From Fischerella sp. PCC 9605 (GTDB taxonomy: Bacteria > Cyanobacteriota > Cyanobacteriia > Cyanobacteriales > Nostocaceae), in assembly GCF_000517105.1 (NCBI RefSeq), contig NZ_KI912149.1, forward strand, positions 1,079,946 through 1,143,945: a stretch of 64,000 nt of DNA, in the 5' to 3' direction. Position 1 is the stretch's first letter, and each line of letters opens with the position of its first letter. The position numbers and the translations under genes are program-made. This document shows positions 19,371 through 64,000 of the stretch, piece after piece. The notes under the pieces were generated by a model. The model saw nothing but the letters and a program-made list of their open reading frames with translations, was not told where the DNA came from and did not search any database.

Positions 19371-19820
19371 AGAGGGAACAGGGAACAGGGAACACCGTTC
19401 CCCTCTTCGATAAAGGAGCAAGGGTAAAGGAAGGAGGAATGGTTAACAAGCAACAACCAACAAACAACAAACCTTAAGTTAGCACCTTAAAACCTTTATC
19501 TTTAGTGGAATAACTCAAAGGCTTTTTAGAAACTATAGTTATCAGCGGTGTAGTTATCTATGCTTTGAAAGCTCTTGCAAGCGAAAACTGCTTTCCCAGG
19601 TAGGACTCTAATTCATACTAAGTTGCAGTCAAAGACAGTACTTCCCTCACCCCGCCTGTCGGCACCCCTCTCCCAATTTGGAACAGGGGAAGGGGAGAGG
19701 GCACGAATTGCTATTGCTATGTCTGAACGCAACTTGGTATCAACTTTAGCTTCTAAATTTCACCGCCCAAAAAGCGCAATTCTCCAAGAACTCATTCAAA
19801 ATAATTGGGGGACTCAGCCA
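19371..19820. other. Intergenic region before ndhK with GGGAACA units and a MITE
   Basis: Begins with GGGAACAGGGAACA tandem units and a GGGAAC/GTTCCC hairpin (about 19376-19402), then CAACAA-type simple repeats (19448-19475). A MITE fills 19615-19740. The remaining 80 bases before the ndhK ATG hold its ribosome site region and perhaps a promoter. Confidence 0.6.
19615..19740. mobile_element. 126-bp MITE, copy 1, upstream of ndhK
   Basis: Ends ATACTAAGTTGC and GCAACTTGGTAT are inverted copies with one mismatch. The interior (CTTCCCTCACCCCGCCTGTC, then GGCACCCCTCTCCCAATTTGG) is nearly identical, in opposite orientation, to 63453-63572. No transposase is encoded, so movement would depend on an enzyme elsewhere. 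An open frame through this element joins the ndhK frame, but that is chance extension, not part of NdhK. Confidence 0.88.
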
Positions 19821-20513
19821 ATGAGTGATACTATTGTTAATCCTATTGAGCGTCCTCAAGTGACGCAACAACTTTCTGAAAATGTCATTCTCACAACCGT
19901 AGATGACCTCTACAACTGGGTGAAAATGTCCAGTTTGTATCCACTGATGTTTGGCACAGCTTGCTGCTTTATCGAATTCAGTGGTATGCTTGGTGCCCGT
20001 TTTGATCTGGATCGATTCGGCTCTTTTCCTCGCATGACTCCCCGACAGGCAGATTTGATTATTACCGCAGGCACAATCACCATGAAGTATGCTCCTACGT
20101 TGGTGCGTCTCTATGAACAGATGCCAGAACCAAAGTACGTTATTGCGATGGGAGCTTGCACAATTACAGGAGGAATGTTCAGCGCAGATTCTCCAACCGC
20201 CGTTCGGGGTGTAGACAAGTTGATTCCTGTAGATGTCTATTTGCCGGGATGTCCACCCAGACCAGAGGCAATTATGGATGCACTTATCAAACTTCGCAAG
20301 AAAATTGCTAACGAAAGCATCCAGGAACGGCAAATTACCCAACAAACTCACCGCTATTACAGTATTTCCCACCAAATGAAGGTAGTATCTCCTGTCCACG
20401 ATGGGCAATATCTGAAAAGCCCAGAAAGGCAAGCCCCATCTCCAGAACTTACTGAAGCAACAGGTTTGCCATTGCCTTTGAAACTGCCAGCAACCACAGC
20501 CAATCAAGATTAA
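19821..20513 (+). CDS. ndhK: NDH-1 subunit NdhK (PSST/NuoB), orphan paralogue
   Basis: The subunit that carries iron-sulfur cluster N2 in the peripheral arm of the photosynthetic NDH-1 complex. Cluster ligands are all present: Cys48-Cys49 (G-T-A-C-C-F), Cys113 (M-G-A-C-T-I) and Cys144 (L-P-G-C-P-P-R-P). The ATG at 19821 gives 230 residues, the usual length, and begins [12 protein letters not shown]. Usually ndhK lies in ndhC-ndhK-ndhJ; here neither neighbour is present, and residues near the cluster differ from the typical form as I recall it ([17 protein letters not shown] versus A-A-L-I-G-S-R-F-D-F-D-R-F-G-L-I). It is therefore probably a second, specialised copy. Its 3' end overlaps the convergent sbcD-like gene by four bases. 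Confidence 0.9.
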
Positions 20514-61485: not shown

Positions 61486-61799
61486 TTAGAAGTTAACTAT
61501 TGGTGTCTGGCATTTGTCGTGAAGTTACCGATGAGAGCATAGTTTTGAGTCTGTTCCTATGGCGATCGCCCTACTCATCAAAATCCTTCTGCAAAGAAAA
61601 GTAATTATCTTTATGTGGCAATTTGCTAAGTGACACATGAGATGAAAGCGTTTAAACCCTTAAAAAGGGAATTTTTTACTCTTGTTTGTTCAATTTATGT
61701 CAAGAGCAATGTTACCTTCTCAAGCTGTCCTAAGCCACTAATTCTCATTGATTTCACTCGTTATATATATTCCTGTGAAACGAATTGAGGGCAGCGAAC
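61486..61799. other. Intergenic region before the glycosyltransferase
   Basis: About 310 bases with one HIP1-like site and AT-rich DNA. GAGGG at 61787-61791 is the ribosome site of the next gene. No other feature seen. Confidence 0.4.
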
Positions 61800-63080
61800 A
61801 TGACTCACTTCGGTATGATCTGTTTAGGTGCAACGGGGCACATCAACACACTGTTTCCATTGGGATATGAACTACACAAACGCGGACATCAAATTACAGT
61901 CTTCAGTGCCCCCCATGTGCAATCAAAAGCGATCGCAGCAGGGTTCAAATTCCGGGCAATCGGCGAGGCTGAGTTTTCGCTAAAACAAGATACCCAACTA
62001 TTTGAACAACAGGGAAAACTGAGTGGATTTGCTGGATTACGCCATACAATAGAATCATTTCGGACGATGGTAGCTGTTGGTTTTCGAGATACACCAGCCG
62101 CTATCAAAGAATCAGGTGCAGAAGCGTTACTGGTTGATATGTCTGCGGTTCAAGGAGGAACCATCGCAGAACATCTCAATCTACCATTCGTAACCGTGTG
62201 CAGCGCCCTAACTTTCTATCAAGATGAATATATTCCACCTGTCAATACACTGTGGAGCTATAATCCTGGTTGGTGGGCACGTTTGCGAAATATTGCTGCA
62301 TATCGACTGCTTGAAGTTCTCATCCAACCAGTTTGGAAGGTTATATCCGAACATCGCCAAATCTGGAATTTACCACCATATAAAAATTTCAACGATCTGT
62401 TTTCCAAACTAGCCATAATTAGTCAACATCCGGTTGAATTTGAATTCCCAAATCGCAAATTACCTCCTTGGTTTTATTTCACCGGGCCTTTTCATGATGC
62501 TATAGGGCGGCAAAAAGTTGATTTTCCTGATGAGAAACTGACTGGACAACCATTGATTTATGCGTCGATGGGAACAATCCGCAATCGTCTTAAGCATATT
62601 TTCTACATAATTGCGGAAGCGTGTCAGGAAATAGACGCCCAACTGGTTATTTCTTTGGGAGGTGCATTAGAACCAGACACACTGTCTAATCTACCTGGAA
62701 AGCCATTAGTTGTTCAATATACTCCACAACTAGAATTACTGAAGAGGACAACGTTAACCATCACTCATGCTGGATTAAACACTACTTTGGAATCACTAAG
62801 TAACGCTGTACCGTTGGTTGCAATTCCAATTTCAGATGAACAACCTGGAATTGCCGCGAGGATTGCTTGGACGGGTGTTGGAGAAGTAGTACCATTGTCT
62901 CGTCTAAGTGTTTCTAAATTGCGAAACGCCATCCAAACTGTACTGATAGAAGAGTCTTATAAGCAAAATGCAGTTCGATTACAAGATGCTATTCACCGTG
63001 CAGGTGGTGTCTGTCGCGCTGCTGATATTGTTGAACAGGCGGTATCGAGTAGAGAACCAGTCATAAATTTTGAGTTCTGA
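61800..63080 (+). CDS. UGT/MGT-family glycosyltransferase (GT1 type)
   Basis: Transfers a sugar from a nucleotide donor to a small hydrophobic acceptor. The N-terminal half has the G-H-I-N-T-L-F-P-L-G acceptor-side motif. The C-terminal half has the donor-binding signature I-T-H-A-G-L-N-T-T-L-E-S-L ... P-L-V-A-I-P-I-S-D-E-Q-P-G-I-A-A-R, typical of GT-B enzymes such as zeaxanthin glucosyltransferase and macrolide glycosyltransferases. 426 residues from ATG 61800. A carotenoid glycoside role is possible in cyanobacteria but not shown. The neighbouring pseudogene is a flavin monooxygenase on the opposite strand. Confidence 0.9.
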   Translation: MTHFGMICLGATGHINTLFPLGYELHKRGHQITVFSAPHVQSKAIAAGFKFRAIGEAEFSLKQDTQLFEQQGKLSGFAGLRHTIESFRTMVAVGFRDTPAAIKESGAEALLVDMSAVQGGTIAEHLNLPFVTVCSALTFYQDEYIPPVNTLWSYNPGWWARLRNIAAYRLLEVLIQPVWKVISEHRQIWNLPPYKNFNDLFSKLAIISQHPVEFEFPNRKLPPWFYFTGPFHDAIGRQKVDFPDEKLTGQPLIYASMGTIRNRLKHIFYIIAEACQEIDAQLVISLGGALEPDTLSNLPGKPLVVQYTPQLELLKRTTLTITHAGLNTTLESLSNAVPLVAIPISDEQPGIAARIAWTGVGEVVPLSRLSVSKLRNAIQTVLIEESYKQNAVRLQDAIHRAGGVCRAADIVEQAVSSREPVINFEF

Positions 63081-63118: not shown

Positions 63119-64000
63119 TTATAGTCGCAGTTGGTTGTACACAGATGGATTTACCGGTTTCATAGGTCTGGATGGAACCATACCACAAGCATCTAGATGC
63201 AATTGTAGCCGCACAATCATTTCATTTATTCGCCAAAAAGCCCAAACTAATGGTCTGCCTAGAGTGTGCAATATTAGTTCCCCACCTTTCAGTTTTCGGT
63301 AGGGTAACCATGCCTCAGCAAAGCGCGTTAACAAAACGTGTTTAATGTTGACCATGCCCAAGAAAAATCTCGGTAATTTCCACATCACCTGACGGAAGAC
63401 AAGGGTACATTCTTGTGCAATACTGGCAGCAAAGGTTGCAATATCGGTGCTGATACCAAGTTGTGTTCAAATATAGCAATTTGTGCCCTCTCCCCCTCCC
63501 CTCTCCCAATTTGGGAGAGGGGTGCCGACAGACGGGGTGAGGGAAGTACTATCTTTGAGTGCAACCTAGTATGACTTGCCAAAACCCACAACCACCACCC
63601 GTTTATCCTGAATCTGAGACGAGTCATTAAACCCAGTAGAGTGAAGAATTTCGCCTCCAGAAGCTATAAACTCTTCCATACCAGGCATCGAGGGTATCTT
63701 AGGAATGCTGAATGTACCGTTACAAACTAGAACGAAGTCAAATTCGTAGTTCTCCTCCAAACCGTCCTTGAACCTGACAGTCACTAGCCAACCTGGTCTT
63801 CCTTGAGTATTTCTAGAAACATTAATAACTTCTGTTTGAAAACAAATCCTCTCGGTGACACCGAAATTGTCTGCGTAGGACTGCAAGTAATTCCGCATTT
63901 GTTCTGCTGTCGGCCACTCTGGATAGGATTCAGGCATGGGATAGCCGATCTTGATACAGATAGTGTCAGCATGGGAACTCTAAGGAAAGCTTGATTGATA
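63119..64000 (-). pseudogene. Flavin-containing monooxygenase gene interrupted by a MITE
   Basis: The upstream piece (to 63573) has P-M-P-E-S-Y-P-E-W-P-T-A-E-Q, F-V-L-V-C-N-G-T-F-S-I-P-K-I-P and the NADP site K-R-V-V-V-V-G-F-G-K-S. There a 120-bp element (63453-63572) breaks in, adding a stop. Beyond it the frame resumes as S-T-D-I-A-T-F-A-A-S-I-A-Q-E-C-T-L-V-F-R-Q-V and runs to a stop at 63119. Joining the flanks directly gives G-K-S-S-T-D-I-A with no frame change. Compared with typical FMOs (over 430 residues) the C-terminal part is also missing, and an in-frame TAG at 63980-63982 suggests loss on the N-terminal side. The window ends before the start. Confidence 0.87.
63453..63572. mobile_element. 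120-bp MITE, copy 2, inside the FMO pseudogene
   Basis: Top-strand ends are ATACCAAGTTGT and GCAACCTAGTAT, inverted copies with a few mismatches. The interior, with the hairpin CCCCTCTCCCAA/TTGGGAGAGGGG, matches the copy at 19615-19740 in opposite orientation. No target duplication is evident, because the coding frame is restored by removing exactly 120 bases. Confidence 0.9.

Follow-up and report, generated by a model that had tools for sequence, protein, structure and literature searches.

Nezha is a MITE that reportedly comes from Anabaena and Nostoc hosts. It is named as a MITE in a title in the reference list of PMC10969869. For Anabaena sp. 90, a total of 147 MITEs has been reported for which the genome has no IS with matching ends, and 15 of these MITEs lie within ORFs that are disrupted (PMC3542288); to find an orphan MITE inside a pseudogene is accordingly nothing unusual in itself. 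For the IS1031 subgroup of the IS5 family, a TNA target and an exclusive 3-bp repeat are described in the accessible part of PMC12016507, and the corresponding part of PMC3610870 makes no mention of MITEs. A literature search with four stretches of the letters of the element described below matched no paper, and the family may still have been published.

The window analyzed here (64,000 nucleotides of Fischerella sp. PCC 9605) contains, at 63453-63572 on the minus strand, a 120-bp stretch, ATAC...GTAT, that separates two segments of a flavin monooxygenase (FMO). The first-pass annotation had read it as a MITE inserted in an FMO gene, with its ends at ATAC...GTAT and with an exact removal that restored the reading frame. 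We consider it very likely that this is a MITE mobilized by a trans-acting DDE transposase, which generates a 3-bp TNA duplication, and that a 121-bp insertion together with the separate loss of one base lies in an FMO pseudogene. The features are listed in Table 1.

Table 1. Coordinates of the features in the window and of related plasmid elements (the latter given within their own loci).
Feature	Location	Strand	Basis or remarks
FMO remnant, 5' part, from residue 65 of a 517-residue homologue	63575..63943	-	tblastn
Target duplication, copy 1 (TCA on minus strand)	63572..63574	-	sequence; TNA rule; empty sites in G073
118-bp MITE proper (TAC...GTA), with inverted ends and a strong hairpin	63454..63571	-	copies, flank rule, fold
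Target duplication, copy 2 (TCA on minus strand)	63451..63453	-	as for copy 1
FMO remnant, 3' part, large internal deletion probably near 63150	63119..63450	-	homology to residue 294, then weak at 474-489
Related MITE copy (L094) of 124 bp (TAC...GTA), member of the longer subfamily, flanked on each side by TCA	19616..19739	+	sequence, flank rule
Plasmid element, L203	2501-2587		similar ends, other interior
Plasmid element, L204	2501-2593		similar ends, other interior
Plasmid element, L205	2501-2660		similar ends, other interior

The MITE family in the genome

Both the 120-bp sequence and its relative at 19615-19740 (126 bp when counted ATAC...GTAT, a member of a 126-bp subfamily) were confirmed. 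The end pattern, allowing up to two mismatches, was matched 86 + 78 times in the genome (8.08 Mb, 12 contigs) and a reversed control pattern 11 + 4 times, an excess that makes a chance repeat untenable; the 164 matches against 15 in the control put the family at about 75 copies. From 49 pairings, after removal of one false 277-bp pairing outside the length limit (L004), 48 distinct copies were read, which are a sample of the approximately 75 picked by similarity rank and list order. These copies are 98-173 bp long, within the limit of about 300 bp for a MITE, and carry no transposase gene. The copy at the FMO locus has terminal inverted repeats (ATACTAGGTTG.. and ATACCAAGTTG..) and folds with -57.8 kcal/mol (z -6.65; none of 200 shuffles was equally good) into a hairpin whose stem closes at the ends. 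Inverted ends, a target-site duplication and many dispersed copies are all present, and the identification of the feature as a non-autonomous MITE is supported.

A strong hairpin would also be expected of a palindromic repeat that had been spread by recombination or slippage rather than as a mobile element. Matches to the window element occurred in 32 of 100 genomes searched (own genome included; at most eight candidates scored in each), and many of the matches listed consist of the interior palindrome only, as in L181 and L182, where no ends adjoin it. Fixed ends, duplicated flanks and identical copies on different contigs argue instead for insertion as a unit, and the paralogous sites described below, one filled and three unfilled, contradict such a repeat, which makes this origin extremely improbable.

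Median pairwise identity is 87% over 47 copies, the 173-bp copy having been left out of the comparison. The FMO-locus copy has a best match of 95%, departs at five positions from a consensus built on 15 members of its 120-bp subfamily and is not among the youngest copies. The family as a whole has probably moved recently. The copy at 19615, from which recent mobility had been concluded at first, is a weak sign of this because it belongs to another length subfamily; better evidence is the identity of L005 and L008, two 120-bp copies that lie on separate contigs, although gene conversion could also account for it. A NuoB/NdhK-type gene starts (ATG at 19821) about 80 bp past the 19615-19740 copy, and because its frame stays open through the copy, a 312-codon ORF spans both element and gene (window 19575-20513). 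Among the other copies in the genome, frame tests found none that clearly joins a long gene, with or without the duplication.

Target duplication and true ends of the element

In 46 of the 48 copies read, the base to the left of ATAC is the same as the base to the right of GTAT, whereas bases that vary independently would agree in 27% of copies (P about 9e-24). These bases lie in a T-N-A context, with T at position -2 in 46/48 copies and A at position +2 in 48/48, and the two copies that break the flank rule are L043 and L047. A related genome (G073) contains 104-bp members with related ends, which follow the same rule in seven of the eight copies read, the exception being L174. One site in this relative, distinct from the FMO site, shows the 3-bp duplication directly, since the filled copy (L173) has TCA on both sides and the three unfilled paralogues (L282, L283 and L285) each have a single TCA. 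Alignment scores at these paralogues were 175 and 170 for a join with one TCA versus 171 and 166 for a duplication-free join. The four loci are copies of a dispersed repeat of approximately 150 bp, filled by the MITE in one of the four copies read. Another copy of the MITE in the Fischerella genome (L089) lies inside a 7-bp tandem array which, by eye only, continues more smoothly if the duplication is assumed.

The flank rule and the single TCA of the unfilled paralogues together indicate that the element is TAC...GTA, flanked by a 3-bp TNA target duplication, and that the outermost A and T of ATAC...GTAT belong to the duplication triplets. As TCA stands on both sides of the FMO-locus copy, the element there is 118 bp long and the insertion amounts to 121 bp. 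The boundaries given by the first-pass annotation are therefore replaced, and its view that no target duplication is visible does not hold; its second suggestion, that the duplication lies inside the ends, came closer, although part of each triplet lies outside ATAC...GTAT.

State of the FMO gene

The FMO segments are homologous to a 517-residue intact FMO over residues 65-294 only, to which can be added a weak match to a 16-residue tail at residues 474-489 (E 4.6-5.0 in tblastn; 0.012 and 0.022 in another comparison). The stretch 63569-63937 gives PF00743 with E 1.7e-20. About 64 N-terminal residues and most of the C-terminal part are missing, and no FAD-binding N-terminus was found in the 5.5 kb searched. 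The gene falls well short of full length even when the MITE is disregarded, and is a pseudogene with or without it. That the element inserted into an FMO gene is upheld, although what is left of this gene is a truncated copy with part of it deleted. At 63119-63172 of the window the remnant seems to pass directly from residue 294 or so to residue 474 in the numbering of a homologue, which would be an internal deletion of approximately 180 residues; the match to the tail is weak. An open UDP-glucosyltransferase-like gene (PF00201; window 61785-63080) adjoins the remnant, and upstream of the remnant lies a divergent 757-codon ORF (L009) that by eye resembles a sensor histidine kinase. The nearest intact FMO is that of Nostoc sp. 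KVJ20 (72% identical over a 122-residue query), and 10 of the 11 loci in named genomes that match the FMO fragment are cyanobacterial (Nostoc and relatives), the other belonging to a Cytophagales bin.

Reading frame across the insertion

When the flanks are joined at ATAC...GTAT, a single open frame (VVVVGFGKS-STDIATFAAS) runs across the NADP-binding motif of the FMO, and at this site it is as long, in residues, as the intact homologues; the extra residues in homologues that the first-pass annotation had named as refuting its reading are thus not present. The explanation that suggests itself is that the element is ATAC...GTAT, inserted without a target duplication into a gene that was ancestrally GKSSTDIAT, so that exact removal restores the frame. 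It would, however, require TNNA targets with two equal bases in 46 of the 48 copies, and the unfilled paralogues of G073 hold one copy of the triplet. It also predicts Ser at a position where the homologues have Ala: these read GKS/GRS-A-[T/C/S/V]-D rather than GKS-S-T-D, and GKS/GRS is followed by Ala (codon GCN) in all 20 loci in which the motif was found (23 examined; the 20 represent about 18 records, as L013/L126 and L018/L128 each appear, from length and position, to come from a single contig). The motif search left L017, L130 and L131 unmatched, and L017 nonetheless reads Ala. We regard a duplication-free element of this kind as very improbable.

With the 3-bp duplication, TCA falls on the Ser codon and the Ala codon is left one base short. 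An insertion of 121 bp implies an empty site that is itself one base short of the FMO frame, and true excision would leave the FMO out of frame by that base. The conserved Ala, set against the Ser of the join, fits a separate loss of one base beside the insertion, and an insertion of 121 with a loss of one gives the net 120 bp that makes the join at ATAC...GTAT look frame-perfect. In tblastn, the match accordingly continues across the element without a change of frame and meets stop codons within it. Since the join matches the homologues in residue number, the duplication does oblige us to assume one extra event, the 1-base loss, which would be separate from the insertion and could have preceded or followed it.

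The missing base might alternatively reflect a fault at the junction, the same MITE with the same habit of 3-bp duplication having entered an intact frame and the FMO copy having either inserted duplication-free or lost a base at its edge. The site of the missing base is only a few bases away from the right-hand triplet, and two of the 48 copies break the flank rule, but both TCA triplets are intact and the shortage lies in the next codon, so that we consider this course of events very improbable.

We therefore retain an insertion with duplication and a separate 1-base loss. A DDE transposase acting in trans, probably of the IS5/IS1031 type, would recognize the inverted ends TACYARGTTGC..., cut T-N-A targets with a 3-base stagger and insert TAC...GTA, which would render the TNA duplication. 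In the FMO gene, the MITE would then have taken a TCA next to the GKS motif as its target, adding 121 bp, and one base would have been lost from the neighboring Ala codon, before or after the insertion, to leave a net 120 bp. The inverted ends, the TNA duplication and the spread of the copies fit a DDE transposase acting in trans. The frame-perfect repair on cutting at ATAC...GTAT is a coincidence: exact removal does yield an open, in-frame join, but not the ancestral frame, and the original statement that no base was gained or lost has to be given up. A frame-perfect join is no proof of the boundaries of an element, here shown by other copies and by empty sites to generate a 3-bp duplication.

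Search for the transposase

The first-pass annotation had proposed a search for a transposase gene flanked by the same ends. In the Fischerella genome, no pair of MITE ends was found around 20 loci matching the transposase families PF13340 (4), PF13359 (0) and PF01609 (16), and in 12 relatives none of the 90 loci examined for these families (30 of 46, 30 of 75 and 30 of 301 matches, or 90 of 422) lay between MITE ends. Neither 20 stretches of the own genome, most of them chosen around end matches for which no partner was listed, nor the plasmids had a transposase between matching ends, and the phage collection gave no match. The exact 26-base end pattern matched once in each of two of 100 genomes and no transposase accompanied it; one match (L287) belongs to an element of approximately 210 bp without a transposase, and for the other (L286) no right end was found. 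At partial end matches in three further genomes (G005, G081 and G033) no transposase was recognized by eye. A loose end pair (L208) was considered as a parent and dismissed for its poor ends and unlike flanks. As a positive control for the end search, the same relatives contain IS5-type elements that end in GAGGATGTTT-like sequences and are flanked by TNA duplications (L240, L246, L248, L251, L295, L302 and L314).

The TNA target and the 3-bp duplication agree with a derivation from IS5/IS1031, and ends in common with an IS5-family transposon were absent from the loci examined. As no transposase with the MITE ends was found, the link to IS5/IS1031 comes from target choice alone, and the parent may exist among the remaining matches or in other genomes. 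The defined ends, target and empty sites now provide a search key for the missing transposase of this apparently orphan cyanobacterial MITE.

Ends and interiors in other cyanobacteria

Elements with similar ends and other interiors were found on plasmids of Nostoc sp. NIES-3756, Calothrix sp. NIES-4101 and Allocoleopsis franciscana PCC 7113. Their first 26 bases are 88.5% identical to those of the window's element, at a BLAST E of about 4, and the three matches were kept only because their ends and TNA flanks read well (TGA, TGA and TTA in the Allocoleopsis, Nostoc and Calothrix plasmids, respectively; 3/3). Between the similar ends lie different G-rich repeats or palindromes in Nostoc, Calothrix, Allocoleopsis and the own genome. 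Ends and interiors may therefore have been mixed, which is the sole part of our results that might be new. That the conserved ends of about 26 bp constitute a transposon system shared by at least two cyanobacterial orders, with interchangeable interiors and an undescribed group of TNA-targeting transposases, is a tentative proposal that we think unlikely.

Comparison with known systems

Like the MITE described here, the Type II MITEs of Anabaena sp. 90 are, in the accessible part of the source, short, multi-copy elements of a filamentous cyanobacterium with no IS of matching ends (PMC3542288); they are likened by description, and for the present MITE a 3-bp TNA duplication is shown. Nezha is likewise a MITE of cyanobacteria, and is likened by kind alone. 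The IS1031 subgroup of the IS5 family shares the TNA target and the 3-bp duplication, whereas the MITE ends TACYARGTTGC are unlike the GAGGATGTTT-like ends of the IS5-type elements of the relatives, and the MITE has no transposase inside. In its copies, ends and duplications the family behaves like an ordinary MITE, with a choice of target like that of IS5/IS1031.
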